DNA of 64,000 nucleotides from assembly GCF_007828955.1 (NCBI RefSeq), contig NZ_VIVR01000001.1:4464001-4528000 (forward strand). The letters are read 5' to 3'. The notes under the pieces were generated by a model. That model was not told where the DNA came from and did no database searches. It saw nothing but the letters and a program-made list of their open reading frames with translations. A program made the translations under genes and the position numbers. Below, piece by piece: positions 41,153 to 56,425 of this stretch. The DNA is from Kitasatospora atroaurantiaca (GTDB lineage: Bacteria; Actinomycetota; Actinomycetes; Streptomycetales; Streptomycetaceae). How positions within the stretch are numbered: position 1 is the stretch's first letter; every line of letters begins with the position of its first letter.

Positions 41153-41179
41153 CACCGCCGGAGACGGCGACGCGCGTGG

Positions 41180-41223
41180 AAAGGGCCGGCTCACGAGGTA
41201 TGAACCTCGGGAGCCGGCCCTTT
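41180..41223 (+). terminator. Terminator of tRNA-Arg
   Basis: 20-bp stem with one mismatch: AAAGGGCCGGCTC-A-CGAGGT (41180-41199) against ACCTCG-G-GAGCCGGCCCTTT (41204-41223), loop ATGA, ending in TTTGT. It lies 27 bases after the tRNA. Confidence 0.85.
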
Positions 41224-41323
41224 GTCGTCGGTCCGGTCACCGGGGCGGGAACCCCCAGGATGCGATCACGGCGTGCCCGCATGACGATGGCGGTGGGGCA
41301 ATGATCGAACTAGGAGAGTCCCG

Positions 41324-41686
41324 ATGGCTGGTCTCGTTCGCAAGAGCTTCGATTCGGCTGAGGAAATCCGCCAGTTCGAAGCGGGCAAGGGCAAGCTCGA
41401 ACTCGTCAACCTCGACGCCGGGGCGGTGGGTCGGTCGACGTTCGAGCCCGGCTGGCAGTGGTCCAAGCACATCAAGCCGATCGCGGGGACCGACAGTTGC
41501 CAGGCCTTCCACACGGCCTACTTCATCTCAGGGCGCATGAAGGTCGTGCTGGATGACGGCGAGGAGACGGAATACGGCCCGGGCGACTTCGGGATCATCC
41601 CGCCCGGTCACGACGCCTGGGTCGTCGGCGATGAGCCATCCGTGGTCGTCGACTGGACGGGCTTCGGGGACTACGCCAAGCGGTAG
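41324..41686 (+). CDS. Cupin-domain protein
   Basis: 120 residues, ATG 41324 with CTAGGAGAGTCCCG upstream. One conserved beta-barrel cupin domain: WSKHIKPIAGTDSCQAFHTAYFISGRMKVVLDDGEETEYGPGDFGIIPPGHDAWVVGDEP. The metal-binding positions of the first motif are partly kept (H48 in WSKH, H63 in FHTAY), and H94 in PPGHDAW fits motif 2, so metal binding is possible. Function unknown; such small cupins act as sugar isomerases, sensors or dioxygenases. Single gene, converging on the ECF sigma gene. Confidence 0.85.
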   Translation: MAGLVRKSFDSAEEIRQFEAGKGKLELVNLDAGAVGRSTFEPGWQWSKHIKPIAGTDSCQAFHTAYFISGRMKVVLDDGEETEYGPGDFGIIPPGHDAWVVGDEPSVVVDWTGFGDYAKR

Positions 41687-41737
41687 CGGCTCGCCTACGT
41701 GCGAGTTCTGGCACGTGCGAGTTCTGACACCGAGCAC

Positions 41738-41771
41738 GACGAGGCCTCAGCCCATGGGCTGAGGCCTCGTC
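41738..41771. terminator. Perfect palindrome, bidirectional terminator
   Basis: A 34-base perfect palindrome, half-sequence GACGAGGCCTCAGCCCA, between the converging cupin and sigma genes. A 16-base sequence (GTGCGAGTTCTG plus ACAC or GCAC) stands twice in tandem just before it, at 41700-41730. Confidence 0.8.
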
Positions 41772-41792
41772 ACGGCGGACACCGTTGCCGTG

Positions 41793-42677
41793 CTAGTCGT
41801 CGAGGACCGTCAGGTCGAGCCGGTGGAGGCGTTCGGGGTCGGACAGGACGTCGATGGCGACGATCCTCCCGTCCGTGACGGTGAAGGCCATGACGGACAG
41901 CGGTCGGCCCTCTGCGGCGACCACCACGCCGGCGGCTCCGTTGATCAGTGCCGGTCGTACGAACGGGGAGAAGCGGCTGAAGGTGACCGCCTGGCCGGCC
42001 ACGGTCCGTGCGCCGGAGATCACGACGGTGTGGCGGGCACGCGCGACGCCGCCGTCGGACCGCAGCACGACCTCGGGGTCGAGCACGGCGACGAGCCCCT
42101 CGAAGTCGCCGTCGCGGGCGGCGGCGAAGAACGCGTTGACGATCTCACGCTGACGGGTGCGGTCAGGGTCGGGAACGGGGGCCTGCCCCTGCACCCGGCG
42201 GCGGGCGCGGCTCGCGAGTTGCCTCGTGGCGGCCGGGGACCGCTCGATCATCGGAGCGATCTCGTCGAAGGGCACGGCGAACATGTCGTGCAGCACGAAC
42301 GCGAGCCGCTCGGCCGGCGCCAGCGTCTCCAGCACCACCAGCAGCGCCAGCCCGACCGAGTCGGCCAGCAGCGCTTCCTGCTCGGGGTCGACCCCCTTCT
42401 CGTTGCTGATGACCGGGTCGGGCATACGCAGCTCGAGAGGGTCCTCGCGCCGCTGCTCGCGCGAGCGCAGCATGTTCAGGCACACCCGTGCCACCACCGT
42501 GGTCAACCACCCGGCAAGGTTCTCGACGTCGCTGGTGTCGGTGCGATCGAGGCGCAGCCAGGCTTCCTGGACGGCGTCATCGGCCTCGGTGAGCGAACCG
42601 AGCATCCGGTAGGCCACCGCTCGCAGACGGGGCCGGTGCTCCTCGAAGCGCTCTATCAGCCGTGCACTCTCGTCCAC
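41793..42677 (-). CDS. ECF41-type sigma factor with C-terminal SnoaL-like domain
   Basis: 294 residues from GTG 42677. Region 2 (LRAVAYRMLGSLTEADDAVQEAWLR, 18-42), region 4 near 110-160 (LETLAPAERLAFVLHDMFAVPFDEIAPMIERSPAATRQLASRARRRV), then an NTF2/SnoaL-like domain to the end. The two motifs that mark ECF41 are recognisable as SDGGVARA (207-214, for DGGGK) and SDPERL (279-284, for NPDKL). There is no anti-sigma gene: in ECF41 the C-terminal domain does that job. The divergent gene is an oxidoreductase/epimerase, the typical ECF41 partner. Start codon next to a candidate ECF41 promoter. Confidence 0.93.
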   Translation of the reverse strand: MDESARLIERFEEHRPRLRAVAYRMLGSLTEADDAVQEAWLRLDRTDTSDVENLAGWLTTVVARVCLNMLRSREQRREDPLELRMPDPVISNEKGVDPEQEALLADSVGLALLVVLETLAPAERLAFVLHDMFAVPFDEIAPMIERSPAATRQLASRARRRVQGQAPVPDPDRTRQREIVNAFFAAARDGDFEGLVAVLDPEVVLRSDGGVARARHTVVISGARTVAGQAVTFSRFSPFVRPALINGAAGVVVAAEGRPLSVMAFTVTDGRIVAIDVLSDPERLHRLDLTVLDD

Positions 42678-42679
42678 CG

Positions 42680-42706
42680 TGTCACATTCCTTCCTCGCGG
42701 CGGGTC
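42680..42706 (+). promoter_or_regulatory. Candidate ECF41 promoter of the partner oxidoreductase gene
   Basis: TGTCACA at 42680-42686, a 16-base spacer, then GGTC at 42703-42706. The published ECF41 consensus is TGTCACA-N16-CGTC, so the -35 is exact and the -10 has one change. It points to the oxidoreductase gene 74 bases downstream. Confidence 0.65.
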
Positions 42707-42779
42707 ATAGCTGTAGACCCACGAACGCAACGGTTGTATCCGGGAGATCGACTCCCGGGCGAGCGAATTGGAGATCACC

Positions 42780-43544
42780 GTGACGACCTCACCCATCCTG
42801 GTCACCGGCGGCACCGGCACGCTTGGCGGCCACGTCGTCCCCCTGCTGCGGGCAGCGGGCCGCGAGGTGCGGGTGCTCAGCCGGCACCGCCGTGAGTCCG
42901 GGGACGGCATCGAGTACGTGGCCGGCGACCTGCTCAAGGGCGAGGGGATCGAGGCCGCGGTGGACGGGGTCGAGATCGTCCTGCACCTCGCGGGTGGCCC
43001 CAAGGGCGACGACGAGGCGACCCGGAACCTGGTGCGGGCCGCGTCGAAGGCGGGGGTGCGGCACCTGGTGTACATCTCGGTCATCGGGGCGGACAAGGTC
43101 CCGCTGGGCTACTTCAAGGCCAAGCTGGGCGCGGAGCAGGCCGTGGCCGACTCCGGCATCCCGTGGACGACGCTGCGTGCCGCCCAGTTCCACGACCTGG
43201 TCCTGACGGTGGTGGAGAAGATGGCGAAGCTTCCGGTGATCCCGGTCCCGGGCGGACTGCGGTTCCAGCCGGTCGACTCGCGCGAGGTGGCCGCCCGGCT
43301 CGTGGAACTGACGCTCGGCAAGCCGGCCGGCCTGGTACCCGACCTGGCCGGGCCGAAGGTGTACGGGATGGCCGATCTGGCTCGCGGACACCTGCAGGCA
43401 CGCGGCAAGCGCCGGTTGATGATGCCGGTACGGATGCCGGGAAAGGCCGGCCGCGCGTACCGGGCCGCCGAGAATCTGTCTCTCGAGGGGGCTGCTGTGG
43501 GCGAGCGGACCTGGGAGGACTTCCTGGCCGAGCGGGTCGGCTAG
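42780..43544 (+). CDS. NAD(P)-binding NmrA/epimerase-type oxidoreductase, ECF41 partner
   Basis: 254 residues from GTG 42780 with TTGGAGATCACC upstream; a TTG at 42768 is in frame. Rossmann motif VTGGTGTLGG near the start, later LHLAGGPKGDDEATRNLVRAASKAGVRHLVYISVIGADKVPLGYFKAKLGAEQAV, typical of the SDR_a5/NmrA group, and a GIPWTTLRAAQFHDLV segment. This is the epimerase/oxidoreductase class of genes (COE) that are the conserved targets of ECF41 sigma factors; substrate unknown. It stops four bases into the convergent MarR gene. Confidence 0.9.
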   Translation: MTTSPILVTGGTGTLGGHVVPLLRAAGREVRVLSRHRRESGDGIEYVAGDLLKGEGIEAAVDGVEIVLHLAGGPKGDDEATRNLVRAASKAGVRHLVYISVIGADKVPLGYFKAKLGAEQAVADSGIPWTTLRAAQFHDLVLTVVEKMAKLPVIPVPGGLRFQPVDSREVAARLVELTLGKPAGLVPDLAGPKVYGMADLARGHLQARGKRRLMMPVRMPGKAGRAYRAAENLSLEGAAVGERTWEDFLAERVG

Positions 43545-44065
43545 TACTCGGCCGCAGTCGGACCCTGGCCCGTCCCCGGTCCGGGCTTCGTCAGGGTCAG
43601 GACCGGGAGGGTGGACAGGCTCCGCAGAGCCCGGAGGAATCCGTTGCGGTCCGCGGCCGGCAGCTGGGCGAGCAGGCGCTCCTCGCCCTCCTGGACGGCG
43701 GATTGGACGGCGTCCCGCAGCCGCCGGCCCTCGGCGGTGAGCGACAGCAGGCGCACCCGCCGGTCAAGGGGGTCGGGCTGGCGGCGGATCAGTTCGCGGG
43801 CCGCCAGGTCGTCGAGGACGGCGATGATGCGGGTCTTGTCCGCCCGGATGGCCTCGGCGAGTGCGGCCTGGGTGCGGATCGGCGTCTCGTCGAGGTGCAG
43901 CAGCACCGAATACGCCCACATGGTCAGGCCGTGGGCGTCGAGGATCGGCTGCTCAGCGGCCATCAGGGCACGGCCGAGCGGCACGACCATCGCCGCGAGG
44001 TCGGGGCGGGCCGGCCCTCCCCGCGGTGTGGTGCTCCCGCTCCCGTGAGCTGCGTTCTCGGCCAT
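43541..44065 (-). CDS. MarR-family transcriptional regulator
   Basis: 174 residues from ATG 44065; GTG 44071 is also possible and the TTG 44089 unlikely. Winged-helix MarR fold: LTMWAYSVLLHLDETPIRTQAALAEAIRADKTRIIAVLDDLAARELIRRQPDPLDRRVRLLSLTAEGRRL, with the beta-wing DPLDRRVRLL. Dimeric repressor of the kind answering phenolic ligands. It faces the DinB-like gene across about 50 bases, which hold TTGACA (44083) and a CATATG palindrome and may form the shared control region; it also abuts the NmrA gene. Confidence 0.9.
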   Translation of the reverse strand: MAENAAHGSGSTTPRGGPARPDLAAMVVPLGRALMAAEQPILDAHGLTMWAYSVLLHLDETPIRTQAALAEAIRADKTRIIAVLDDLAARELIRRQPDPLDRRVRLLSLTAEGRRLRDAVQSAVQEGEERLLAQLPAADRNGFLRALRSLSTLPVLTLTKPGPGTGQGPTAAEY

Positions 44066-44117
44066 GGCCACGAAAATACCCGTTGACAATTCATATGCTC
44101 ACGCAGATCGTAAGCAC

Positions 44118-44798
44118 ATGCATACGGATTGGGAGCGGACGGACTTCGACCGCACACGACGCCTCCATGCCCAGGCGGTCCGGGACAGCGTGACCCTGGT
44201 GGGCCAGGTGACCCCCGAGGATCTGCCCCTGCCGACGCCCTGCGCAGCGTGGGCGCTGAGCGATCTGCTCGCCCACATGACGGCCCAGCACCGGGGATTT
44301 GCGGCGGCCGCGCTCGGGCACGGCCAGGACCTGACGCACTGGGAGGTCCGGCCGCTCGGCGGGGACGCCGTCGAGCAGTACGGCGAGGCAGCCGAGCAGG
44401 TCATCGCGGCGTTCGCGACCGTGGCCGCCCCGGACCGCGCCCTCACCCTCCCCGAATTCACCGCAGCCCGGACGTTCCCCGCAGCCCGGGCCATCGGCTT
44501 CCACCTCATCGACTACGTGGTGCACAGCTGGGACGTCGCCCGCAGTCTCGGTCTCGCGTACGACCCCGGGCCCGAACTCCTGCAAGCCGCGCTGCCGATC
44601 GCCCGCGCAGTGCCGGACGGCGACTCCCGGGTCGCCCCGGGCAGCCCCTTCCGGCCGGCGCTGGCCGCGGACCCCGACGCGGGCCCGCTGGAGCTGATCC
44701 TGACGGCCCTGGGCCGGTCGCCGGACTGGCGGAGCCCGGTCCGGGATGCGGCAGCCGGCTCGCCCCAGGGCACCGCAGTCTGCGACACGACATGCTGA
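44118..44798 (+). CDS. TIGR03086-family metal-binding (DinB-like) protein
   Basis: 226 residues from ATG 44118 (MHTDWERTDFDRTRRLHAQAV); the earlier ATG 44064 would overlap the MarR start. The family belongs to the maleylpyruvate isomerase/DinB superfamily, helical-bundle proteins that often use mycothiol. Visible: PLPTPCAAWALSDLLAHMTAQHRGFAAA, with H53 in LLAHM, and FHLIDYVVHSWDVARSLG, with the His residues that bind a metal. Function unknown; the divergent MarR gene suggests induction by a small toxic compound. Overlaps the next gene by 7 bases. Confidence 0.88.
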   Translation: MHTDWERTDFDRTRRLHAQAVRDSVTLVGQVTPEDLPLPTPCAAWALSDLLAHMTAQHRGFAAAALGHGQDLTHWEVRPLGGDAVEQYGEAAEQVIAAFATVAAPDRALTLPEFTAARTFPAARAIGFHLIDYVVHSWDVARSLGLAYDPGPELLQAALPIARAVPDGDSRVAPGSPFRPALAADPDAGPLELILTALGRSPDWRSPVRDAAAGSPQGTAVCDTTC

Positions 44799-45223
44799 GG
44801 TCCTCCTGGACGCCCGGCCAGGACCACGGCCACGGCGGCCCGGTACTGGTCAGCGTCACCGACTTCACGCTCGACAGGATCGCGGACCTGCCCGGCGTCT
44901 ACCGCGCGGCCCGCCGGCTCGCGGCGGACTGGGCTGAGCTGGAGGGGGCGCACGGGTTGTGGCTGTGGGCGGTCCCCACGGCCCGTCGGTGCGGTGCCGT
45001 CGCCGTGTGGAGCGACGCGGCCGCTCTGCACCGCTTCATCGCCTGGCCACCCCACGTCGCGATCATGCGCCGGTACAAGGGGCGCGGCACCCTGGCCTCA
45101 ACCACGTGGCAGGCTGAGGGATTCGACCCGACGGCCACCTGGACCCGCGCCCGAGCCGCCCTCGGGGCCGGGCAGACGGGAGTCGGCCGACCGGGGCCTC
45201 CGGGATGCATCCGCGCCGGGTGA
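44792..45223 (+). CDS. Small soluble protein, possibly monooxygenase-like (dimeric alpha/beta barrel)
   Basis: 143 residues from ATG 44792, overlapping the previous gene by seven bases, so probably co-translated. The pattern VLVSVTDFTLDRIADLPGVYRAARRLAADWAELEGAHGLWLWAVPTARRCGAVAVWSDAAALHRFIAWPPHVAIMRRYKGRG resembles the beta-alpha-beta layout of antibiotic-biosynthesis-monooxygenase or DUF3291 proteins, where His in PPHVAIM is conserved. No firm family. A long hairpin follows its stop. Confidence 0.7.
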   Translation: MLRSSWTPGQDHGHGGPVLVSVTDFTLDRIADLPGVYRAARRLAADWAELEGAHGLWLWAVPTARRCGAVAVWSDAAALHRFIAWPPHVAIMRRYKGRGTLASTTWQAEGFDPTATWTRARAALGAGQTGVGRPGPPGCIRAG

Positions 45224-45229
45224 GCACGT

Positions 45230-45284
45230 CTCAGGTCGGTGAGCCGGGCGACGTACCCGTCGCCGTCAGACTCACCGACCTGAG
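45230..45284. terminator. Two-part hairpin, bidirectional terminator
   Basis: Outer 14-bp perfect stem CTCAGGTCGGTGAG (45230-45243) with CTCACCGACCTGAG (45271-45284); inside it a second 7-bp stem GGCGACG / CGTCGCC (45247-45264). It lies between converging genes. Confidence 0.8.
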
Positions 45285-45314
45285 TGTCCGGCAGACCCTG
45301 GTCTGTCCACCTGG

Positions 45315-46778
45315 TCAGAGCGCTGCGGCTGCCCGCTCCTCGGTCGAGCGGCGAAGGAGGAGCGCGATGACCAGGGCGGCGAGCAGCACCACGCCCGCGT
45401 CGATGGCCAGGGCCAGGCGGACGCCCGAGAGCACCGCCTCGCTCGTCGAGTGGGTCGCCTCCAGGGCGTGGATGCGGCTGGTCGCGACGGCGCTCAGCAC
45501 CGGGATGCCCGCGGCGAGGCCCACCTGCTGGGTCATCGTGGCCAGACCGGTGGCGAGCCCCTGCTCCTCGTCGGGGAGGCCGGAGGTCGCGGTGATCATG
45601 TACGAGACGACGGCGGTCAGGTGGCCGAAGGCGCCCACCGTCAGCGCGGCGAGCACCAGGGCGATGCTGCTGCTGTCCCCGGCGACCAGGAACATCCCGA
45701 GCGGCGCGACCGCCTGCAGCACCATGCCGCTGACCAGGCCGAGGCGGTTGCCGAAGCGGCCGACGATCCGCGGGGCGATGACCCCGCCGAGGAAGGCCGA
45801 GACGCCCAGTACCGAGAAGGCGAGACCGGTGGCCATCGCCGAGTACCCGATGACCTCCTGCAGATAGAGGGTGGCCAGGAAGATCACCGCGGTCTGCATG
45901 GTGATGGCGATCAGGCCGCCGAAGTTGCCCCACCGCACGCTCGGCTTGCGCAGGATCCACACGGAGGCGAGCGGGGCGTCCGAGCGCAGCTCGATCCGCC
46001 AGAACGCGCCGAGCAGGACGACGCCGAGTGCGATGAAGCCGAGCACCAGCGGGCTGCCCCAGCCCAGGCCGCCGGCCCGGGAGACGCCGTACACCAGCGA
46101 GACCAGGCCGACGCTCACGGTGACCGCGCCGGGCACGTCCATCCTGGCCCGCTCGGTGATCTTGCTCTCGGCGAGCAGCAGCGGGGTGAGGACGATGATC
46201 GCAACGCCGACCGGCACGTTGATCAGGAAGGCCCAGCGCCAGCTCAGCAGGTCGGTGAGCAGGCCGCCGACGACCGCGCCGACGGTGAATCCGGCCGAGA
46301 TCATCGCGCCGTTCACACCCAGCGCCTTCGCGCGCAGCGGACCCTCGGGGAACGACGTGGTGAGCAGGGCCAGGGCGGACGGGGTGGCCATCGCGGTGGC
46401 CACACCCTGGGCGACCCGCGCCGCGATCAGGACGGCGGGCTCGTTCGCCGCGCCCCCGACCAGCGAGGACAGCACCAGGAGCGCGATGCCGGCCAGGAAG
46501 ATCCGGCGGCGGCCGTAGATGTCGGCGACGCGGCCGAAGAGCAGCGTGAACCCGGCGGCGGTGAGGGCGAACGCCGTGGCGATCCACTGCAGGTCCCCGA
46601 CCGCGAAGCCGAGTCCGTCGCCGATGACCGGGATGGCCACGTTGAGCAGGGAGAAGTCGGCGGCGAGCAGGAACGTCGTGCTGAGCAGCAGTACCAGGAT
46701 CGCTCGCTGCCGCCGCGTCATGCGCGGCTGCGGTGGGCTGGCGCTGTCCGGGATCGCTCGCTCGTCCAGGACGGACAT
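45315..46778 (-). CDS. MFS drug exporter, DHA2 (14-helix) type
   Basis: 487 residues from ATG 46778 (MSVLDERAIPD); GTG/other starts up to 46787 are possible. About 14 hydrophobic segments. Motif A-like loop FGRVADIYGRRRIFLAGI, motif C-like GAVVGGLLTDLLSWRWAFLINVPVG and motif D1 region SLLNVAIPVIGDGLGFAVGDLQWIATAF place it in the EmrB/QacA group of H+-driven exporters. Divergent from the DsbA-like gene and next to the fatty-acyl cassette, so it may export the product of that cassette; this is inference. An AT-rich near-palindrome lies 36 bases upstream. Confidence 0.92.
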   Translation of the reverse strand: MSVLDERAIPDSASPPQPRMTRRQRAILVLLLSTTFLLAADFSLLNVAIPVIGDGLGFAVGDLQWIATAFALTAAGFTLLFGRVADIYGRRRIFLAGIALLVLSSLVGGAANEPAVLIAARVAQGVATAMATPSALALLTTSFPEGPLRAKALGVNGAMISAGFTVGAVVGGLLTDLLSWRWAFLINVPVGVAIIVLTPLLLAESKITERARMDVPGAVTVSVGLVSLVYGVSRAGGLGWGSPLVLGFIALGVVLLGAFWRIELRSDAPLASVWILRKPSVRWGNFGGLIAITMQTAVIFLATLYLQEVIGYSAMATGLAFSVLGVSAFLGGVIAPRIVGRFGNRLGLVSGMVLQAVAPLGMFLVAGDSSSIALVLAALTVGAFGHLTAVVSYMITATSGLPDEEQGLATGLATMTQQVGLAAGIPVLSAVATSRIHALEATHSTSEAVLSGVRLALAIDAGVVLLAALVIALLLRRSTEERAAAAL

Positions 46779-46813
46779 GGTGAACACCTTTCGCTCTGAC
46801 TCAGCACGCTATG

Positions 46814-46828
46814 TGAATTTAATTTTCA
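46814..46828. promoter_or_regulatory. AT-rich near-palindrome upstream of the exporter
   Basis: TGAATTTAATTTTCA, outer arms TGAA/TTCA, within an otherwise GC-rich region, 36 bases before the exporter start and about 210 before the DsbA-like gene. It could be a TetR- or MarR-type operator or promoter element. Confidence 0.4.
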
Positions 46829-47037
46829 ATAAAACGGATGGGAAGGGACTCTGACGATGGTTCGACAGTGGGGGATGCGCGGTCGACCCGGAGGGAGTCA
46901 CTTCGTCAGGTCCGGGGAGCCGCAAGAGAGGTGACGGAGTCACCGGGCGCCGGTTCCGTCGGGTGTGGGGCCCTGGCCAGAATGCCGCCATGCCGCACGT
47001 CGGCATTGCAACCCCCTACGGCCCGGAGGAGAGACTC

Positions 47038-47793
47038 ATGGCCACGCAGGTCGAACCAGGCACGCGCCCCACGCCGGACGCCCCGCAGAGCACGGACGGA
47101 CTGTTCTCGCCCGACCTGGGGACGGTGACCGTCTGGTCGGACATCGGCTGCCCCTGGGCGACCCTGGCCCTGCACACCCTGCACGCCGCAGCCCGGCGGC
47201 GCGGTGAGCAACTCCTCGTCGACCACCGGGTCTTCCCGCTGGAGCTGTTCAACCGTCAGTCCACACCCAAGCCGATCATCGACGCCGAGATCGTGGCGAT
47301 CGGGGCCAAGGCTCCCGAGCTGGGTTGGCGGCTGTGGTCGTCGCCCGAGTGGAGCTACCCGGTGACGACGCTGCCCGCGATGGAGGCCGTCCAGGCCGCC
47401 AAGGCCCCGGCCGTCGGCGGCCTGGCGGCCAGCGACGAGCTGGACACCGCGCTGCGCCGCGCCTTCTACGCCCAGGGCCGGTGCATCAGCGTCCCGTCGG
47501 AGATCCTCGACGTCGCCGCGGAGTGCGAGTCGGTGGACGAGGCGGCGCTGGCCGAGGCGCTGGAGCGTGGTGCGGGGCGGGCCGAGATCTACCGGGACTT
47601 CGCGGTGGCCAGCGGCCCGCGGGTCCAGGGCAGCCCGCACATGTTCACCGCCGCCGGCGTCGATGTGCACAACCCGGGCGCCACCTACCGGTGGACGGGA
47701 GACCCCTATGACGGCGGTTTCCCGGACTTCACGGCCTACTCGGAGGCCTGGGCGGAAGAACTGCTCGACAGCCTGCAGCAGAAGCCCAGCTGA
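47038..47793 (+). CDS. DsbA-family protein with a single active-site cysteine
   Basis: 251 residues from ATG 47038, six bases after GGAGGAGA. DSBA-like thioredoxin domain (FrnE/2-hydroxychromene-2-carboxylate isomerase type): TVTVWSDIGCPWATLALHTLHAAARRRG, then an alpha-helical insertion with LRRAFYAQGRCISVPSEILDVAAE, and VQGSPHMFTAAGVDVHNPG with the cis-Pro region. The usual CxxC is C38-P-W-A41, so the second cysteine is missing. That argues against ordinary dithiol oxidoreductase work and for glutathione/mycothiol-transferase or isomerase-like chemistry. No signal peptide, so cytoplasmic. Precedes the FabH/ACP cassette. Confidence 0.88.
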   Translation: MATQVEPGTRPTPDAPQSTDGLFSPDLGTVTVWSDIGCPWATLALHTLHAAARRRGEQLLVDHRVFPLELFNRQSTPKPIIDAEIVAIGAKAPELGWRLWSSPEWSYPVTTLPAMEAVQAAKAPAVGGLAASDELDTALRRAFYAQGRCISVPSEILDVAAECESVDEAALAEALERGAGRAEIYRDFAVASGPRVQGSPHMFTAAGVDVHNPGATYRWTGDPYDGGFPDFTAYSEAWAEELLDSLQQKPS

Positions 47794-47946
47794 AAGGCGA
47801 GCTCTGGTCAATTGCGGCCCCCGGGCCACCTGACAGAGTAGATTTCCGGAATTTGCCCGGCCCGGCGCGTTCGCATTCCAATTCCATGGAAGGCAGTTGC
47901 CGTCAGCGCGGATACGTACCCAATTCCCTGTGTGGAGGCCAAGGCC

Positions 47947-48969
47947 ATGAGCATTACGCCGCAGTCCGAGCAGCGCGTCGCGGTTCTCAAGGGACTGGGG
48001 ACCTATCTTCCCCCGCGTGTGGTCAGCAACGAGGAACTGTCCGGGCGGCTCGAGACGAGCGACGAGTGGATCAGGACCCGGACCGGGATCCGGCAGCGCC
48101 ACTGGGCCGACCAGGGGACGGCGACGGGCGATCTCGCCTTCGAGGCGGGGGCCCGCGCGCTCAAGGCCGCAGGCGTCGAGAAGGTCGACGCGGTGGTCCT
48201 GGCCACCACCACCCCCGACCACCCCTGCCCGGCGACCGCCCCGGCCGTCGCCGCCCGCCTCGGGCAGGGGACGGTGCCCGCCTTCGACGTCTCCGCCGTC
48301 TGCGCCGGCTTCGTCTACGCCACGGCCGCCGCGTCGAGCCTGATCGTGGCGGGACTGGCCGAGCGCGTTCTGGTGATCGGTGCGGAGACGTACTCCACCA
48401 TCCTCAACCCGGAGGACCGGACCACCTCGGTGATCTTCGGTGACGGCGCGGGGGCGATCGTGCTGGAGGCCGGCACCGCGGGCGAGCCCGGAGCGCTGCT
48501 CGGCTTCGACCTCGGCAGCGACGGCGAGTACCCGGACCTGATCAGCATCCCGGCCGGCGGCTCCCGGCAGCGCTCGGAGGGCACCGCCCCCGACCCGTCC
48601 GCGTACTACTTCTCGATGCAGGGCAAGCAGGTCTTCGCCCACGCGGTGAACAGGATGGGCGAGTCCTCCGCCGCCCTGCTCGAGCGGATCGGCTGGCCGA
48701 CGGAGTCCGTCGACCGCCTGGTCGGGCACCAGGCCAACGTCCGCATCCTCCACTCGCTGGCCGATCTGCTCGGCGTCGAGCGTGAGCGCGCGGTGGTGAA
48801 CCTCGACCGGGTGGGCAACACCTCCGCGGCGTCCATCCCTCTCGCCCTGGCCGACGCCGTGAACGGCGGGGCCGTCAAGCCGGGTGACCGGGTGCTCATG
48901 ACCGCCTTCGGCGGCGGCCTCGCCTGGGGCTCGACCGCGCTGGTCTGGCCGGACGTCGACGTCGTCTGA
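47947..48969 (+). CDS. Beta-ketoacyl-ACP synthase III (FabH-like)
   Basis: 340 residues from ATG 47947 (GGAGG eight bases upstream). FabH condenses an acyl-CoA with malonyl-ACP to start fatty acid or polyketide chains. The catalytic triad is complete: C119 (SAVCAGFVYA), H261 (GHQANVRIL) and N291 (GNTSAASIP); GDGAGAIVLE is the conserved second half. It is likely a paralogue for a specialised product, not the housekeeping FabH, because it stands with its own ACP and a second KAS III rather than with fabD/fabF. Leader region 47810-47946 is AT-richer, with the palindrome TTCCATGGAA. Confidence 0.93.
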   Translation: MSITPQSEQRVAVLKGLGTYLPPRVVSNEELSGRLETSDEWIRTRTGIRQRHWADQGTATGDLAFEAGARALKAAGVEKVDAVVLATTTPDHPCPATAPAVAARLGQGTVPAFDVSAVCAGFVYATAAASSLIVAGLAERVLVIGAETYSTILNPEDRTTSVIFGDGAGAIVLEAGTAGEPGALLGFDLGSDGEYPDLISIPAGGSRQRSEGTAPDPSAYYFSMQGKQVFAHAVNRMGESSAALLERIGWPTESVDRLVGHQANVRILHSLADLLGVERERAVVNLDRVGNTSAASIPLALADAVNGGAVKPGDRVLMTAFGGGLAWGSTALVWPDVDVV

Positions 48970-49035
48970 CCCCTTGAACGAAAACTGCGCCGGAGAGGTG
49001 CAGAAGAAGCAGACAGGAAAGCGAGAGGAATCGCG

Positions 49036-49317
49036 ATGAGCGCGACCGAGAAGCGTATCGACATGCGAATTGCCGAGCACATTGTCGAGATCCTGGTGGA
49101 GAAGTACGAGATTCCCACCGAGACCCTCGAGCTCACCGCCGAGTTCGAAACGATGGAGCTGGACTCGCTCGTCCTGGTCGAACTGGCGGTGATCCTGCAG
49201 AAGCACTACGGGGTCAGCGTCGACGACTGGGAGATCGAGGCCGCGAAGACCATCGAGAACACCGTCGCCATGCTCCACGACAAGGGAGTTCCGGCACCCG
49301 CGTCGGCCGCCGTCTGA
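49036..49317 (+). CDS. Acyl carrier protein
   Basis: 93 residues from ATG 49036, after GAAAGCGAGAGGAATCGCG. The phosphopantetheine attachment serine is S44 in MELDSLVLVEL. Helix I (RIAEHIVEILVEKYEI) and helix III are clear; the protein is acidic as expected. It differs from primary-metabolism AcpP by the LDSL (not ADSL) core and the long Ala/Pro C-terminal tail, which fits a polyketide or specialised fatty acyl carrier. Sits 66 bases after the FabH-like gene and is most likely its partner. Confidence 0.93.
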   Translation: MSATEKRIDMRIAEHIVEILVEKYEIPTETLELTAEFETMELDSLVLVELAVILQKHYGVSVDDWEIEAAKTIENTVAMLHDKGVPAPASAAV

Positions 49318-49376
49318 CGAATCGGCCGGCCGCCGCTGCCGCCGTTCCCTTCAGCCCGGGTACAGGGGGAATCCTG

Positions 49377-49622
49377 ATGACTTCACGATTCATTGGCAAG
49401 GTCACGCGGGTCACCGGAGGGGGCTCCGGGATCGGCAGGGCGAGCACGCGGGCCCTCGCCCGGGAGAGTGCCGCCGGGCCGGCGCCGTCGGGTCCGCGGG
49501 AGACCGTGGCGCCGGCCGAGGCGGAGGGCCCGGACGGGTTCAACACCTCCTGGATAGGGCTGTTCGACGCGATCGGTGCACAGCTCGAGCAGAACCTCCT
49601 GGCTCTGAGGCCCCGGTGCTGA
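49377..49622 (+). pseudogene. Remnant of a short-chain dehydrogenase/reductase gene
   Basis: 81-residue open frame with GGGGGAATCCTG before its ATG. The N-terminus MTSRFIGKVTRVTGGGSGIGRASTRALARE is a textbook SDR cofactor site (TGGGSGIG), but text then jumps through low-complexity Ala/Pro residues to GFNTSWIGLFDAIGAQLEQNLLAL, which resembles the SDR helix with N-x-x-G-x-F-x-A found about 100 residues later in normal enzymes. The NNAG, catalytic Ser and YxxxK are absent. So a 240-residue ketoreductase gene seems to have lost its middle and end. Confidence 0.7.
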
Positions 49623-49682
49623 CCGTCCGCCCTCAGGCCTCCCCGTCTCGATGATGTTTCGGAATCGGAAGGAAGTGCACAG

Positions 49683-50738
49683 ATGAAGTACGAGGACCTG
49701 TACATATCCGGCGTCGGCTCGTGGTACCCGAAACCGGTGCCGGTGGACAAGGCCATCGATGCCGGCTGGTACGACGAGGGGACCCGGCGGCGTACCGGGC
49801 AGCTCAGCGCGACCGTGGCCGGGGACGACGACTCCCAGCCGGAGATGGCCGCCCGCGCAGGCACGCTGGCGGTACGTCAGGCAGGCCTCGCGCAGAGCGA
49901 CTTCGGGCTCCTGCTGCACGCCACCACCGGGTTCTGCGGCCTGGACGGATGGAACGTCGGCTCCTATCTGCAGCACGAGGTCCTGGGCGGGCACGGCGTC
50001 GCTTTCGAGGTCCGGCAGCAGTCCAACGGCGGCATGGCCGCGATCGAGCTGGCCGCGGCCTACCTGGCGGCCGGGACCGACCGCACCGCAGCCCTGATCA
50101 CCGCCTCGGACCGCTTCGCCGAGCCGGTCTGGGACCGCTGGCGGGCGTACACCGGGCTGGTGCTGGGTGACGGTGCGAGTGCCGCGGTGCTCTCCCGGCA
50201 GCCCGGCTTCGCCCGGGTGCTGTCGGTGGCGACCGAGAGCCGCGCGGAGCTGGAGGGTGCCCAGCGCGGCGACCTGCCGTTCCGGGCCAACCCCGACCCG
50301 AGCGACGCGGACGCGTACCCGATCAGCCTGATCAACCGTATGAAGGGCTTCGCGTCCAACGGGATGGGCCTGTCGGAGATCTTCCGGCGGATGAACGCCT
50401 CGCTGATCAAGGCGGTGGCGGTCGCGACGGATGAGGCGGGGATACGCCCCTCGGACGCCGATCACCTCATCTTCCCCAACTTCGGCCGGACGATGCTGCA
50501 GCAGGAGGTTCTGGAGCCGCTGGGCCTGGACCTGGACCGGACGCTCTGGCAGTGGGGGCGGGAGATCGGCCACGCGGGTGCGACCGACCAGTTCGGCGCC
50601 CTGGACCACCTCGGCCGTGAGGGGCTGCTGGAGCCCGGTCAGCGGGTCCTGATGACGGGAATCGGGCTGGGATTCAACTGGACGTCCGCCGTGGTGGAGA
50701 TCCTCGAGCGGCCCACTCCCGTCGGGCCCCAGCTGTGA
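49683..50738 (+). CDS. KAS III-fold acyltransferase with Ser-His-Asp triad (DpsC/CerJ type)
   Basis: 351 residues from ATG 49683 (GGAAGGAAGTGCACAG upstream). KAS III fold, but the active-site cysteine is replaced by S114 (VRQQSNGGMAAIELA), the usual His position reads FPNFGRTML, and the Asn motif is replaced by GHAGATDQ with H297 and D302. A His-Asp pair five residues apart is the arrangement known in CerJ (Cys-His-Asp) and the serine is like DpsC, the propionyl starter enzyme of daunorubicin. Such enzymes transfer acyl groups without decarboxylative condensation. Likely partner of the upstream ACP and FabH-like enzyme; acyl group unknown. Confidence 0.9.
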   Translation: MKYEDLYISGVGSWYPKPVPVDKAIDAGWYDEGTRRRTGQLSATVAGDDDSQPEMAARAGTLAVRQAGLAQSDFGLLLHATTGFCGLDGWNVGSYLQHEVLGGHGVAFEVRQQSNGGMAAIELAAAYLAAGTDRTAALITASDRFAEPVWDRWRAYTGLVLGDGASAAVLSRQPGFARVLSVATESRAELEGAQRGDLPFRANPDPSDADAYPISLINRMKGFASNGMGLSEIFRRMNASLIKAVAVATDEAGIRPSDADHLIFPNFGRTMLQQEVLEPLGLDLDRTLWQWGREIGHAGATDQFGALDHLGREGLLEPGQRVLMTGIGLGFNWTSAVVEILERPTPVGPQL

Positions 50739-50824: not shown

Positions 50825-53224
50825 GTGGTACAACCCCCTTCCGGTGGGCGAGCGAATCCACTTCTTTCGCCTTTGGGGGGCATCATCAAGACACGAATAG
50901 GCGCTCTGACCGGCGCCGTGGTGCTCGGCGTCGTGGGCCTGCCGGCCCTCGGCGCCAGCGTCGCGGCGGCCGACGGCGCGAACCTCTACGTCAACAACGC
51001 GGCCGGGGCGCACTGCTCCGACTCCGGCCAGGGCACCCAGCTGCAGCCGTACTGCACCATCTCGGCGGCCGCCGCCAAGGTGCAGGCCGGCCAGACGGTG
51101 AACATCGCTTCGGGCGACTACCCCGAGCAGGTCACCATCACCCACTCGGGCACCGCCCAGGCCCCGATCACCTTCACGGGCACGATCGGCCCGCTGACCG
51201 GGTATCCCTTCCCGGACACCCGGGTCGGCGGCGGGTGGAACAGCTCCTTCGCGCACGGCTTCGCGCTCAAGGGAGCGGAGCACGTCCGGATCCGCAACGT
51301 CGACGTCAATGCCAAGCAGGAGGCGGTGCTGGTCGACGGCGGCTCCGACGTCACGATCTCCCAGAGCCTGCTCTCGGGCGGCATGCCCTCGGGCAACATC
51401 TACGGGTTCCCGGCCGTCCGGGTCACCGGGTCCGCCAAGGCGGTGACGCTCGTGCAGAACGGCACCGTCGGTACGGGCGGCTTCGCCAAGCTGGAGTCCG
51501 GGGTCCAGGGCACGGTGATCTCGGCCAACGACCTCCGTACCTCGCGGCTCACCGGCGTCGTGGCGGACTCGGCGCCGGGCACCGTGATCGTCGGCAACAC
51601 CTTCTCGGCCCAGTGCCACGACGTGGTCGAGCTGGCCGGGGCGTCCACGGGCGCGACCGTCGAGAACAACGTGATCTCGACCTCGGACGCGAACAACCAC
51701 CTCAACCCGCTCTGCGCGGAGGCCTCGACCTTCGTCGGCCTGCGGGTGGCCGCCGAGGCGGTGACCGGTACCAAGGTCGCGTACAACGTGTACGACGCCC
51801 AGGACGGCAGCCCCGCCTACAGCTGGGCGGGCAAGACGTACGACGACGTCGCCCTGTTCGCCGCCGCCACCGGCCAGGGGGACCACGACGTCATCGGCGA
51901 GGCCGAGCTGCGCGGCTGGGAGGGCGACTCGGGCGGCAAGGCCTCCCCGATCGTCGACTCGGCGGACGAGAACGCGCCCGGCATGCCGGCCGGCGACAGG
52001 TTCGACGTCCGCGCCGTGGACGACCCGTGGGTGGCCGACACCGGCACCGGCTCGGGCCGACGCGACCGCGGTGCGCACGAGCTGGACAACTTCGGTACCC
52101 GCTACACGCCGGTCGGCCCGGTCCGGGTGCTCGACACCCGTGGCGGTACGGGCGTCGATGCGGGTGCCGTACCGGCGCACGGCACCGTCGAGCTGCCGCT
52201 CACGGGTCTGAACGGCGTCCCGGCGGACGGGGTCACGGCCGTGACGATGAACGTGACGGTGACCGAGGCCGCCGCTGCCGGATACCTGACGGTCTTCCCG
52301 CACGGGGACGACCGCCCGACGGCCTCGAACCTCAACTGGACCGCGGGGCAGACCATCCCGAACCTGGTGACCGTCCAGGTGAAGGACGGCAAGGTGTCGT
52401 TCTACAACGGCAGCAGCGGCACCGTGCACGTGCTCGCCGACCTGCTCGGCTACTTCAGCACCACGGGCAGCGGCTTCACCTCGACCACGCCGCACCGGCT
52501 GCTGGACACCCGGTACGGCACCGGCGCCCCCAAGGCGCCGCTGTCGGCGGGCGGCACGCTGGACCTGCAGGTGGCGGGCGTGAACGGCGTCCCGGCCACC
52601 GGCCTGACCGCCGTGACCCTGAACGTCACGGTGACCGAGCCGACCGACCACGGCTACCTGACCGCGTACCCGCACGGCGGTGACCGTCCGACGGCCTCGA
52701 ACCTCAACTGGTCGAAGGGACAGACGATCCCGAACCTGGTCACCGTCCCGGTCAAGGACGGCAAGGTCTCGCTGTACAGCGGCGGCGGCTCGGGGACGGT
52801 CCAGGTCGTCGCGGACCTGGCCGGGTACTTCACCGCGACCGGCGGCGACAAGTACCACGCGGTCGCGCCGCGGCGCGTGATCGACACCCGGGCGCCGTGG
52901 TTCTCGGACGGCATCGGCGAGTGGCAGCCGGCCAAGCCGGTCGGCGCCGGCCAGGTCCAGGTCGTCCGTGACGTCGGCTACTCGAACGCCACCGCAGTGG
53001 CCCTGAACGTCACCGTGACCGGCGGAACCGCGCCCGGCTACCTGACGGTCTACCCGCAGGGGGCCACTCGTCCGACGGCCTCCAACCTCAACTGGACGGC
53101 CGGCCTGACCATCCCGAACCAGGTGGTCGTCGCGACCAGCGAGTCCGGCCAGAACAGCTTCTTCAACGGAAGCGCGGGCAGCGTGGAGCTCATCGCCGAC
53201 ATCAACGGCTACTACGCCCCCTGA
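50825..53224 (+). CDS. Secreted right-handed beta-helix protein with three C-terminal LDTR domains
   Basis: Up to 799 residues. The start is unclear: GTG 50825 gives a long leader; TTG 50873 would give LGGIIKTRIGALTGAVVL as signal peptide, and no good ribosome site fits either. Mature N-terminus is likely after GASVAAADG. Residues about 50-420 look like a parallel beta-helix (pectate-lyase/DUF1565-like: VNIASGDYPEQVTITHSGT, VRIRNVDVNAKQEAVLVDGGSDVTISQS, GTVISANDLRTS, ATVENNVIST), a fold of polysaccharide lyases and cell-surface proteins. Residues 420-799 are three copies of about 120 residues with VxVLDTR, LNVTVT, TASNLNW and IPNLV landmarks. Confidence 0.85.
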   Translation: MVQPPSGGRANPLLSPLGGIIKTRIGALTGAVVLGVVGLPALGASVAAADGANLYVNNAAGAHCSDSGQGTQLQPYCTISAAAAKVQAGQTVNIASGDYPEQVTITHSGTAQAPITFTGTIGPLTGYPFPDTRVGGGWNSSFAHGFALKGAEHVRIRNVDVNAKQEAVLVDGGSDVTISQSLLSGGMPSGNIYGFPAVRVTGSAKAVTLVQNGTVGTGGFAKLESGVQGTVISANDLRTSRLTGVVADSAPGTVIVGNTFSAQCHDVVELAGASTGATVENNVISTSDANNHLNPLCAEASTFVGLRVAAEAVTGTKVAYNVYDAQDGSPAYSWAGKTYDDVALFAAATGQGDHDVIGEAELRGWEGDSGGKASPIVDSADENAPGMPAGDRFDVRAVDDPWVADTGTGSGRRDRGAHELDNFGTRYTPVGPVRVLDTRGGTGVDAGAVPAHGTVELPLTGLNGVPADGVTAVTMNVTVTEAAAAGYLTVFPHGDDRPTASNLNWTAGQTIPNLVTVQVKDGKVSFYNGSSGTVHVLADLLGYFSTTGSGFTSTTPHRLLDTRYGTGAPKAPLSAGGTLDLQVAGVNGVPATGLTAVTLNVTVTEPTDHGYLTAYPHGGDRPTASNLNWSKGQTIPNLVTVPVKDGKVSLYSGGGSGTVQVVADLAGYFTATGGDKYHAVAPRRVIDTRAPWFSDGIGEWQPAKPVGAGQVQVVRDVGYSNATAVALNVTVTGGTAPGYLTVYPQGATRPTASNLNWTAGLTIPNQVVVATSESGQNSFFNGSAGSVELIADINGYYAP

Positions 53225-53239
53225 TCCACCGGACAACAG

Positions 53240-53281
53240 CTGTGGCCCCGGCCCCCGCCGTAGCGGGAGCCGGGGCCACAG
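53240..53281. terminator. Hairpin between converging surface-protein genes
   Basis: 18-bp stem with one mismatch: CTGTGGCCCCGGC-CCCCG (53240-53257) against CGGGAGCCGGGGCCACAG (53264-53281), loop CCGTAG. It serves both converging genes. Confidence 0.8.
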
Positions 53282-53299
53282 TGCTGTGCGGACCAGGCG

Positions 53300-56200
53300 T
53301 CAGTTGGTGTAGTAGCCGGTGATGTCGGCCAGCAGGTCGGCGCTTCCGGCCCGGTTGAAGAAGGCGACCTTGCCGTTCACGACCGGGACGACGACCAGGT
53401 TCGGGATCACCTGGCCGGCCTTGAAGTTGAGGTTGGAGACGTTCGGGCGGGTGGTGCCGTCCGGGTAGACGGTGACGAAACTGTCCGCCGAGGGGAGCAC
53501 CGCGGTGACGTTGAGGACCACGGCCGTCACCCCGGAGCTCGGCAGCCCGGCCTTGCCGGCGACCTGGAGGGTCAGGGTGCTGCCGGCGCCGACCTTGGCC
53601 TGCGGTGCGCCGAGGCCGGACCGGGTGTCCAGCAGCCGGGTCGGGCCCGCGCTGGTGAAGGTCGAGGCGCCGTCGGGCGCGTAGTAGCCGGTGATGTCGG
53701 CGAGCAGGTCGACGCTGCCGGCCCGGTTGAAGAGGCTGACCTTGCCGTCGGTGATCGGGACGATCACCAGGTTCGGGATCGTCTGCCCGGCGGTGAAGTT
53801 GAGGTTGGAGACGGTGGGCATGGTGCTTCCGTGCGGGTAGACCGTCACGAAGCTGTCGGCGGTCGGGCCGGTCGCCGTGACGTTGAGGATCACGCCCGTG
53901 GCGTTGGCGGGCACGCCCGCGTTGCCGGCGACCTGCAGGGTCACCTCACCGCCGGCGCCGACCTGCGCCTTGGGCGCGCCGGTGCCCTCCCGGGTGTCCA
54001 GCAGACGGGTCGGCGTGGTGGTGGTCAGCTTCGAGGTGCCGTCCGGCGTGTAGTAGCCGGTGATGTCGGCGAGCAGGTCGACGCTGCCGGCCCGGTTGTA
54101 GAAGTTGACCTTGCCGTTGACGACCGGGACGACCACGAGGTTCGGGATGACCTGCCCGGCACTGAAGTTGAGGTTCGACGCCAGCGGGCGGGGCTGCCCG
54201 TCCGGGTAGACCGTCACGAAGCCGTTGGACGTGGGCGCGACGGCGGTGACGTTCAGGATCACCGAGGTGGCGTTGGCGGGCACGCCGGTGTCGCCGCCGG
54301 TGACCTGCAGCGAGACGGTGCGGTCGGCGCCGACCTTCGCCGCCGGCGCGCCGAGACCGGACCGGGTGTCCAGCAGGCGGGTCGGGCCGAAGGGGGTGTA
54401 GCCGCTCGGCGCGGGCGTGGTAGCGGCGACCACGTCGACGTCGTCAGCCTTCACGTACGCGATCCGGTGGTTGTACCGGATCTCGTAATACTTGGTCGAG
54501 CCAACGATCACACTGTTCTTGGCCCAGTCGGAGCCGTCGTCGTTCGCCACGTGGTAGTTGTCACTGATCACCGGGCCGGAACCGAGAACGGCGTAGAGCT
54601 GTCCGGTCGGGACGGTGGCTGTAGGAGAGAGCGGGGTGACGTCGTCCGCCTTGATGCCGGCCGGATACGCCAAGGCCTCGGGGAAGGCACGCCCGTACAC
54701 CGGGGCGTCGTTGTTCTTCGGCTTGACCAGGAGCTGCTTCGTCCGGTCATCCGCAACGCCGTTCTGGCCGTTCGGGTTGTAGAACCAGGCCTTGGAGCCG
54801 CCGAACCAGATGGCTGTCCAGTCACCCTTGAGGTCTGCAATGACGAAGGACTGTCCCGACACCGCCTTGGCGCGACCGTCAGAGGCGTCGGTCCCGCCAC
54901 TGTTCACCAGCGCGTAGCTGGTGCCGGGGCCGGTGTACAGGTAGACGAAGTTTCCCGGCATGGTGGGGCAGGGCTGGCCAGGGTACTCCCTGCTCGGGTC
55001 GGGGCCGCAACCGGTGACGCTCGGCTGGTTGGCCGTGGTCAGCGGAGGGTCGATGACGACCTTTCCGCCGACGAGCAGCGAGCCGCCGCCGTTGGACCTG
55101 ATCGGTGAGCCGAGCAGGTCCATGTAGTGGTCCCAGTCCCAGAGCGTCCCCGGATCCCAGTGCTCGCCGCCGAGGTTGTACGCGGGGACGGGAACGTCGT
55201 CGTGACCGAGAATGTGCTGGCGGTCCAGCGGGACGCCGAAGCGGTCGGCCAGGTACTTGGTGAGCAGCGCGGAGTTCTGGTACTGCTGATCGGTGTACCA
55301 GGAAGCGTTGGGGATGGCCCAGCCCTCATGCTCGATCCCGATGCTATGCATGTTCACATAGCGGTTGCCCGCATGCCAGGCGACATCCTTGGTGGCCACC
55401 AGCTGGGTCACCTTGTTGTTGTTGCCCCCGACCAGGTAGTGGGCGCTAGCCTGCTTGGCCGGGTTCTTGAAGACCGAGAGCGCACCATCGTAGGCGCCCT
55501 CGGTGTCGTGGACGATGATGTAACGGATGTCCTGACCGTCTGCCGGACGGTTGAACTTGGCGTAATTGCCGTAGCTCAACGAGCTACCGCTTCCCGTCGA
55601 CTGGTAGGCGGCATTGACGATGTCGCAGTTCAGGGTCGGTGGGCACTCGACGGTGGACACGTCGCGCGGCGAAGCCGCGAGCACTGGGGTCGACACCTGG
55701 GCGTTGGGCCCCAGAGTGACGTGCTGTCCCTCGACGGTCGTCCGCTCGGCGCCGGTCTTGATCGTTCTGTACACACGGTCGGCGAACTGCCGCCCGCCGT
55801 CGGCAGCCGGCGACTGACTGAAGCGCACCACCGCGTCGTACCAGGCGGAGGCGTCAGCGGAGGCGGGCTTGCCGATCTCCTTCTGGTACTTGGCGATCAA
55901 TGCGGCGCCGCCACGGACACTCTGCGCGGTGTCGGTGCGCAACGCAGCCGTCGGCTGACCGATCAGGCGCGCGGCGGCCTCCAGGGTGTGCAGTGCAGGG
56001 CTGTCGATCGGTGCGGTCGTGCTGCTCGGCGTGGCGGCGGACTTCGCGACGGCGTGGGCGTCCTCGCCGGCGCCGCCTTCCTCGCCCTGGGTGATGGCCA
56101 CGGCGGCGGGATCGACCTGGGTCAGGCCCATCACGTTGTAGTTGCCCGTGGTGCTCGGCTGCCCCTGGTGGGACTCCCAGCGGGTCTCCTGGTACGAGAG

Positions 56201-56425
56201 CGCCAGCAGCACGCTCTGCGGCACGTGGAACTCGGCGGCCGCGGCGGCGAACTGGCGCTGCAGCGCGTCCGACCCCGCCGAGGCGGCGGCGGGAGTGGTG
56301 CTCGCGCCGGCGAACAGGGCGAACCCGGTGGCAGTGGCGGCAGCGGCGGCGGTGACCGCCAGCGGTATCCGCAGCTTGTGTCTGCGGCGGTGCGAGGCGC
56401 GGTGTGCTCGGTGTGTGGCAGTCAA
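53300..56425 (-). CDS. Secreted N-acetylmuramoyl-L-alanine amidase with three C-terminal LDTR domains
   Basis: 1041 residues. Signal peptide at about 1-49 (RRHKLRIPLAVTAAAAATATGFALF ... AAASA). Residues about 52-220 form a lysozyme-like/transglycosylase-like helical domain (LLALSYQETRWESHQGQ, NYNVMGLTQVDP). The Amidase_2 zinc domain spans about 298-425: zinc ligands H306 (IIVHDTEG) and H408 (ILGHDDVP), with E366 in IGIEHEG. A linker and SH3-like stretch (YLYTGPGTSYALVNSGG) lead to three about 120-residue repeats with TRLLDTRSGLGAP, LNVTA, SNLNF and IPNLVVVPV. It should cut peptidoglycan at the wall. Paired tail-to-tail with the beta-helix protein that carries the same repeats. Confidence 0.92.
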   Translation of the reverse strand: MTATHRAHRASHRRRHKLRIPLAVTAAAAATATGFALFAGASTTPAAASAGSDALQRQFAAAAAEFHVPQSVLLALSYQETRWESHQGQPSTTGNYNVMGLTQVDPAAVAITQGEEGGAGEDAHAVAKSAATPSSTTAPIDSPALHTLEAAARLIGQPTAALRTDTAQSVRGGAALIAKYQKEIGKPASADASAWYDAVVRFSQSPAADGGRQFADRVYRTIKTGAERTTVEGQHVTLGPNAQVSTPVLAASPRDVSTVECPPTLNCDIVNAAYQSTGSGSSLSYGNYAKFNRPADGQDIRYIIVHDTEGAYDGALSVFKNPAKQASAHYLVGGNNNKVTQLVATKDVAWHAGNRYVNMHSIGIEHEGWAIPNASWYTDQQYQNSALLTKYLADRFGVPLDRQHILGHDDVPVPAYNLGGEHWDPGTLWDWDHYMDLLGSPIRSNGGGSLLVGGKVVIDPPLTTANQPSVTGCGPDPSREYPGQPCPTMPGNFVYLYTGPGTSYALVNSGGTDASDGRAKAVSGQSFVIADLKGDWTAIWFGGSKAWFYNPNGQNGVADDRTKQLLVKPKNNDAPVYGRAFPEALAYPAGIKADDVTPLSPTATVPTGQLYAVLGSGPVISDNYHVANDDGSDWAKNSVIVGSTKYYEIRYNHRIAYVKADDVDVVAATTPAPSGYTPFGPTRLLDTRSGLGAPAAKVGADRTVSLQVTGGDTGVPANATSVILNVTAVAPTSNGFVTVYPDGQPRPLASNLNFSAGQVIPNLVVVPVVNGKVNFYNRAGSVDLLADITGYYTPDGTSKLTTTTPTRLLDTREGTGAPKAQVGAGGEVTLQVAGNAGVPANATGVILNVTATGPTADSFVTVYPHGSTMPTVSNLNFTAGQTIPNLVIVPITDGKVSLFNRAGSVDLLADITGYYAPDGASTFTSAGPTRLLDTRSGLGAPQAKVGAGSTLTLQVAGKAGLPSSGVTAVVLNVTAVLPSADSFVTVYPDGTTRPNVSNLNFKAGQVIPNLVVVPVVNGKVAFFNRAGSADLLADITGYYTN

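Follow-up and report, generated by a model that had tools for sequence, protein, structure and literature searches.

An acyl-building and acyl-transfer module of Kitasatospora atroaurantiaca is probably a displaced part of a 3-hydroxyanthranilate pathway

We analysed a 64,000-nucleotide stretch of the Kitasatospora atroaurantiaca genome (NCBI RefSeq assembly GCF_007828955.1, contig NZ_VIVR01000001.1, positions 4,464,001 to 4,528,000; the whole stretch is referred to as the window), which carries a short run of genes for a FabH-type beta-ketoacyl-acyl carrier protein synthase III (KAS III), a dedicated acyl carrier protein (ACP) and a KAS III-like acyltransferase. This module is probably the displaced acyl-building and acyl-transfer part of a 3-hydroxyanthranilate (3-HAA) pathway, the remainder of which lies about 0.78 Mb away in the same genome. 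The gene content, the active-site residues, the two loci, a gene scar that links them and the insertion that carries the module can all be observed directly. A sequence-only reading of the same DNA had described four units in a row; the open reading frames (ORFs) were correctly located, but there are five of them plus a divergent exporter gene. On the forward strand they encode a DsbA/FrnE-like thioredoxin-fold protein (46963-47793; PF01323, E 1.7e-8), the FabH-type KAS III, which belongs to a secondary-metabolism clade (47932-48969; TIGR00747, Cys-His-Asn triad), the ACP with Ser44 (49036-49317; PF00550, E 1.2e-10), a reductase stub (49377-49622) and the KAS III-like acyltransferase (49683-50738; S114/H297/D302 and Asn266, from PDB matches and alignments), while a DHA2-family major facilitator superfamily exporter is encoded divergently on the reverse strand (45315-46787; TIGR00711, E 4e-57). 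Strong codon-position GC bias was observed in the exporter and in every module ORF with the exception of the stub, and the module has no acceptor-making gene next to it.

Among 395 genomes of the family, ACP orthologues were found in three, namely G045, G307 and that of the window, and a scan for the acyltransferase across the genomes of 84,980 species returned these same two others, there under the names Kitasatospora sp. SUK 42 and Streptomyces curacoi DSM 40107. In these two genomes the module genes are scattered through one cluster of about 20 genes, and the encoded proteins are 72–73% (exporter), 69–76% (DsbA-like protein), 77–79% (FabH), 67–70% (acyltransferase) and 57–59% (ACP, the least conserved) identical to those of the window. 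On the 3-HAA side, these contiguous clusters encode PabAB, a class II 3-deoxy-D-arabino-heptulosonate 7-phosphate synthase (DAHPS), DhbA (2,3-dihydro-2,3-dihydroxybenzoate dehydrogenase), a PhzD-like and a PhzE-like protein. They also carry a full short-chain dehydrogenase/reductase (SDR), EhpF, an EhpG-like partner of the aldehyde-dehydrogenase family, an aldo-keto reductase (AKR), a flavin adenine dinucleotide (FAD) mono-oxygenase, WrbA, a multicopper oxidase, AroA and AroC, the last being whole only in SUK 42. PhzE, PhzD and DhbA homologues lead from chorismate through 2,3-dihydro-3-hydroxyanthranilate (DHHA) to 3-HAA in the limazepine pathway (PMC5958127), and the contiguous clusters are predicted to encode this route plus a carboxylate reductase, with the presence of DhbA alongside PhzD pointing to 3-HAA rather than to a phenazine. 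The proposal of a complete compact pathway was not supported by this comparison, as the orthologues are embedded in a larger 3-HAA cluster in both genomes. The sequence-only reading had named the conserved edge of a known larger cluster as the finding that would speak against it, and this was largely what emerged: the larger cluster exists, although we found no description of it. The exporter, which had been suggested as the outlet, can be counted as a member of the set, given its conservation alongside the module in both contiguous clusters. The multicopper oxidase was rejected as a cluster-specific marker because a homologue occurs in 19 of 70 genomes of the genus.

A search of the K. atroaurantiaca genome itself identified EhpF (78% identity) and PhzE (67% identity) homologues at a second locus at 3.706–3.732 Mb, within an inspected region of 3.68–3.76 Mb. 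This locus carries genes for AKR, EhpF, EhpG, AroC, the FAD mono-oxygenase, AroA, an SDR, WrbA and a multicopper oxidase, and PhzE, PhzD, DhbA and DAHPS are encoded together at 3727.1–3732.0 kb. None of the multi-gene 3-HAA/EhpF set of the contiguous clusters was found among the window proteins, and none of the exporter, DsbA-like protein, FabH, ACP and acyltransferase was found at 3706–3732 kb; PabAB and the 160-residue AtaL-like protein of the contiguous clusters (PF08982, from the match of the homologue in the relative G053) are also missing from the second locus. The EhpF homologue matched EhpF in the PDB (E 2e-85) and its partner belongs to the aldehyde-dehydrogenase family (Aldedh, E 7e-14), and the two are predicted to form an EhpF/EhpG-type carboxylate reductase pair. 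The two parts have diverged from SUK 42 to the same extent, with a synonymous divergence (dS) of 0.42–0.80 for the module and 0.36–0.76 for the second locus, and the ratio of nonsynonymous to synonymous divergence (dN/dS) relative to SUK 42 and S. curacoi was about 0.2–0.5 in both parts, indicating that the genes are under constraint. In the relatives G053 and G039 the second locus lies at the orthologous site, its flanks matching on either side, and neither AKR-EhpF-EhpG nor the acyl module was found in these genomes; an orthologous acyltransferase was not found in G033, G039 or G053. The joint presence of AKR-EhpF-EhpG and the module in K. atroaurantiaca, and their joint absence from G053 and G039, is as would be expected from one shared modification. 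The second locus also includes a DDE_5 transposase-like protein (3719820-3721073, reverse strand; Pfam match on the L168 homologue), which is conserved in 3-HAA clusters (L166, L167, L168, G166, G307 and G027) with 86–87% identity in relatives and 44–46% in the others, and whose conservation suggests a domesticated protein with a possibly regulatory role. A further PhzE-like gene, 57% identical to the SUK 42 PhzE, was found at a third locus (1765890-1767782).

What we regard as the strongest evidence for a tie between the two loci is the DNA of the reductase stub, in which an SDR is recognisable only in the first ~32 residues. The scar (49362-49529, forward strand) comprises the decayed 5' part of an SDR gene and its leader, with the ribosome-binding region included. 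Over 110 bp it matches the second-locus SDR gene (3716070-3716178) at 80% identity (E 1.5e-20), while the next-best match in the 7.87-Mb genome reached 5e-4. The stub had been called a gutted reductase, and the DNA match identifies it as the remnant 5' end of an SDR gene that has decayed. The scar is also 78–80% identical over ~160–165 bp to the SDR genes of G053, G039 and G033, and much less similar to the SDR genes of the two contiguous clusters; its similarity to the SDR genes of the genus indicates that the module once abutted an SDR gene of the type found there. In G053, G039 and G033 an AtaL-like gene is located between the SDR and WrbA genes, and its absence from this position in K. atroaurantiaca is a second irregularity at the same SDR junction.

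The best PDB matches of the KAS III-like acyltransferase, over its whole length in phmmer, were DpsC (4e-68), CerJ (1e-65) and ChlB3 (1e-60), and the protein scored under all curated FabH cutoffs. The predicted Ser114, His297 and Asp302 are present and, together with Asn266, invariant in the three orthologues. The claim that this triad denotes transfer instead of condensation has to be modified: DpsC has been described as a condensing enzyme with a Ser-His-His arrangement (PMC9573744), so that Ser/His/Asp alone does not separate the two activities. The argument for transfer comes instead from Asn266 ('FPNFGR'), which aligns with the His of 'LPHMGW' in DpsC and replaces the residue needed for decarboxylative condensation, suggesting a transfer-type enzyme acting on N or O. 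The same reasoning from loss of the His was applied earlier to Pau29 of the paulomycin pathway (PMC4425429), which shares the Ser-His-Asp residues and the Asn and sits in a 3-HAA cluster; its role in paulic acid addition is disputed, as the step has been assigned to Plm19 (PMC4802897). CerJ and ChlB3 share the fold family and the nucleophile-His-Asp triad, and in the alignment ChlB3 has Asn at the condensing-His position as in the window enzyme, although the nucleophile in both is Cys and not Ser. The window enzyme differs from CerJ, ChlB3 and Pau29 in having a FabH and an ACP of its own as partners. A structure model built from the alignment of the three sequences had a mean predicted local distance difference test score of 48.9 and was too poor for use.

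As the sequence-only reading had anticipated, FabH is a complete KAS III with C119/H261/N291 (numbered from the ATG at 47947), and it exceeds the TIGR00747 cutoff (340 bits, cutoff 292). Its sequence indicates that it is not the housekeeping enzyme, since the genome's own fabD-fabH-acpP-fabF operon, identified by gene order and encoded sequences, is located at ~2.096 Mb and encodes a FabH that is only 37% identical and belongs to another, distant clade; a plain fatty-acid or housekeeping role was rejected on the grounds of the operon and the tree. In the tree, the window FabH and the SUK 42 and S. curacoi copies formed one group (support 0.987), surrounded by FabH copies most of which adjoin an ACP gene, and the grouping with housekeeping FabH that was to count against the sequence-only reading did not occur. 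The ACP has a PP-binding domain with a DSL serine at Ser44 and scores under every NCBIfam cutoff for housekeeping ACPs, as expected of the non-housekeeping carrier that had been proposed. The DsbA-like protein lacks the second Cys (SDIGCPWA), and the same C-P-W-A motif was observed in SUK 42, S. curacoi and G166, in the last of which a homologue also adjoins EhpF. Since CPWA replaces CXXC, the protein is unlikely to be a disulfide oxidoreductase and may instead be an isomerase or thiol-transferase; no match to it was found in the PDB. Elsewhere in the genome, another FabH-ACP pair (5077797-5078786) has a FabH that is 59% identical to that of the window and a different neighbourhood.

FabH, the dedicated ACP and the transfer-type enzyme probably work together. 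The substrates, acceptor and product, as well as the direction of the move and the continued co-operation of the two loci, we infer. FabH would join malonyl-ACP to acetyl-CoA, or to a different short acyl-CoA, by condensation. The resulting beta-ketoacyl-ACP would in the simplest case be acetoacetyl-ACP, and its reduction to 3-hydroxybutyryl-ACP may be carried out by the SDR that is intact at the second locus. The acyl group would then be loaded on Ser114 of the KAS III-like enzyme, which lacks the condensing His and would pass the group to a nucleophile. A 3-HAA derivative is the likely provider of this nucleophile, through its aryl amine or one of its hydroxyls; the EhpF/EhpG pair would have reduced the carboxyl of this derivative, and its ring would be further oxidised before the DHA2 pump exported the product. 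The module itself would have moved out of a cluster of the full type, with an SDR fragment left between the ACP and acyltransferase genes. The earlier guess that FabH and ACP build a unit that the acyltransferase moves thus holds for the roles but not for a free-standing pathway, and the acceptor, which had been called unknown, now has a concrete candidate identity, as the contiguous clusters and the second locus make 3-HAA derivatives a strong candidate class.

A recurrent class of clusters (L103, L104, L106, L107 and L109) combines 3-HAA genes and EhpF/EhpG with an ACP-less KAS III that is 41–43% identical to the window FabH; L104 adds an adenylosuccinate-lyase-family protein and L109 an arylamine N-acetyltransferase (PF00797). 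The L104 and L109 EhpF/EhpG clusters have a KAS III and no acyl module, and since L109 also has the arylamine N-acetyltransferase, an aryl amine is supported as the acceptor. Should the two parts co-operate, they are likely to yield an acylated aromatic amine or quinone that could not be predicted from either locus alone; the scar marks a clear cluster fission, and cluster tools that consider one locus would misread either part. A narrower version, which we consider rather unlikely, is a two-locus pathway in which the dedicated FabH-ACP pair and an ACP-dependent KAS III-fold N-acyltransferase place the beta-ketoacyl group on a 3-HAA-derived amino-aldehyde, followed by quinoline or quinolone closure. 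It is speculation that an N-acetoacetyl amide with a free aldehyde could close to a quinolone; if true, this would be a new product class that single-locus cluster finders would miss.

Several observations weigh against the assignment of the module to a split 3-HAA pathway. It occurs in three genomes only, which makes co-occurrence statistics weak, and the multicopper oxidase is non-specific evidence. The relatives have the second locus without the module, so this locus would be able to work alone, and in a tree of seven core proteins the K. atroaurantiaca locus did not come out as sister to the two contiguous clusters, so there is no proof that both parts were inherited together. The module may have been lost by the relatives, may have moved, or may have been gained with EhpF/EhpG.

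Among the other explanations, a self-sufficient mini-pathway, in which a short acyl unit is made and passed to an unrelated acceptor with no involvement of the second locus, would agree with five intact genes under constraint and with a module that stands alone within the insertion. We consider it unlikely, since the only other orthologues found, in two genomes, are both part of a 3-HAA cluster, the SDR scar connects the window with the second locus, and no acceptor-making gene adjoins the module. A little less probable is that the module has become stranded and non-functional, a relic that has been decaying since it left its cluster, as the destroyed SDR, the non-adjacent partner genes and the poor conservation of the ACP (57%) might suggest; the exporter, DsbA-like protein, FabH, ACP and acyltransferase are nevertheless full length with catalytic residues retained, dN/dS is about 0.2–0.5 at a dS of ~0.4–0.8 from SUK 42 and S. 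curacoi, and an intact copy of the lost SDR is present at the second locus.

The two remaining explanations concern the enzymes themselves. The KAS III-like enzyme could form a C-C bond, like the carbazole enzymes CqsB1/NzsJ with 3-hydroxybutyryl-ACP, given the diversity of condensing reactions among KAS III-like enzymes (PMC7466098) and a supply by FabH and ACP that follows the same logic; Asn266 at the condensing-His position of DpsC, the Ser nucleophile and the transferase activity of its best relatives CerJ and ChlB3 (PMC9573744) render this improbable. Least of all do we favour a spare FabH/ACP pair that tops up lipid synthesis, which is very improbable in view of the full fab operon elsewhere, the clade and 37% identity of FabH, the divergent ACP and the restriction to three genomes, even though the FabH family cutoff is exceeded.

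The displaced-module reading also draws on parts of known pathways. In neocarazostatin biosynthesis, NzsE/NzsF (CqsB6/CqsB5) are a dedicated KAS III and free ACP that give acetoacetyl-ACP (PMC7466098) and, as would be the case here, serve a non-polyketide scaffold; however, the next KAS III-like enzyme condenses (C-C) and the scaffold is tryptophan-derived, not 3-HAA-derived. The limazepine, paulomycin and benzoxazole 3-HAA routes share DAHPS, PhzE, PhzD and DhbA with the second locus and the contiguous clusters, whereas here these are joined to EhpF/EhpG and the acyl module, and neither a nonribosomal peptide synthetase as in limazepine nor a BomJ/BomN pair was recognised. An EhpF homologue beside an aldehyde-dehydrogenase-family partner is shared with EhpF/EhpG of D-alanylgriseoluteic acid and GriC/GriD of grixazone, the latter of which reduce an aminohydroxybenzoate (PMC10179220). 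Their substrates are a phenazine and 3-amino-4-hydroxybenzoate, respectively, while here 3-HAA itself or one of its derivatives would be reduced. For nybomycin, an acetoacetyl-CoA synthase and an N-acyltransferase (NybM/NybK) were proposed to acetoacetylate an aryl amine (PMC6265801); the KAS III and arylamine N-acetyltransferase of the L109 cluster are analogous, in contrast to the ACP-bound donor and KAS III-fold transferase of the window. The nybomycin, paulomycin and carbazole clusters were rejected as the parent, as they share parts but not the set. The combination of 3-HAA supply, EhpF/EhpG reduction and FabH-ACP-acyltransferase was found described in no paper, and the literature on 3-HAA, Kitasatospora and EhpF clusters and on split clusters yielded no matching product.

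In G038 the counterpart of the 37759-39264 gene adjoins the beta-helix gene (50825-53224 in the window), and in G009 it adjoins MurJ. Because these flanks adjoin directly, 39375-50738 is an insertion into a stretch that is conserved in other respects. The inserted block encodes a carboxyl-transferase-domain protein, ECF-like sigma, NmrA-like and MarR-like proteins, the exporter and the acyl module; direct repeats or an insertion sequence element were not convincingly found at its borders. The carboxyl-transferase-domain protein (39375-40940, reverse strand; PF01039) is of the ACCA-like acyl-CoA carboxylase type and could be a malonyl-CoA supplier, but neither of the contiguous clusters yielded a counterpart. 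The surrounding region, from a PMT-like gene to a MurJ paralogue (37759-58647), varies in content among relatives and seems to be a variable site within conserved surroundings. Finally, the beta-helix and amidase proteins at 50825-56425 contain a domain that also occurs, at ~40–47% identity, in large repeat proteins at 3752–3760 kb, ~20 kb from the second locus, and its presence near both loci is probably a coincidence.

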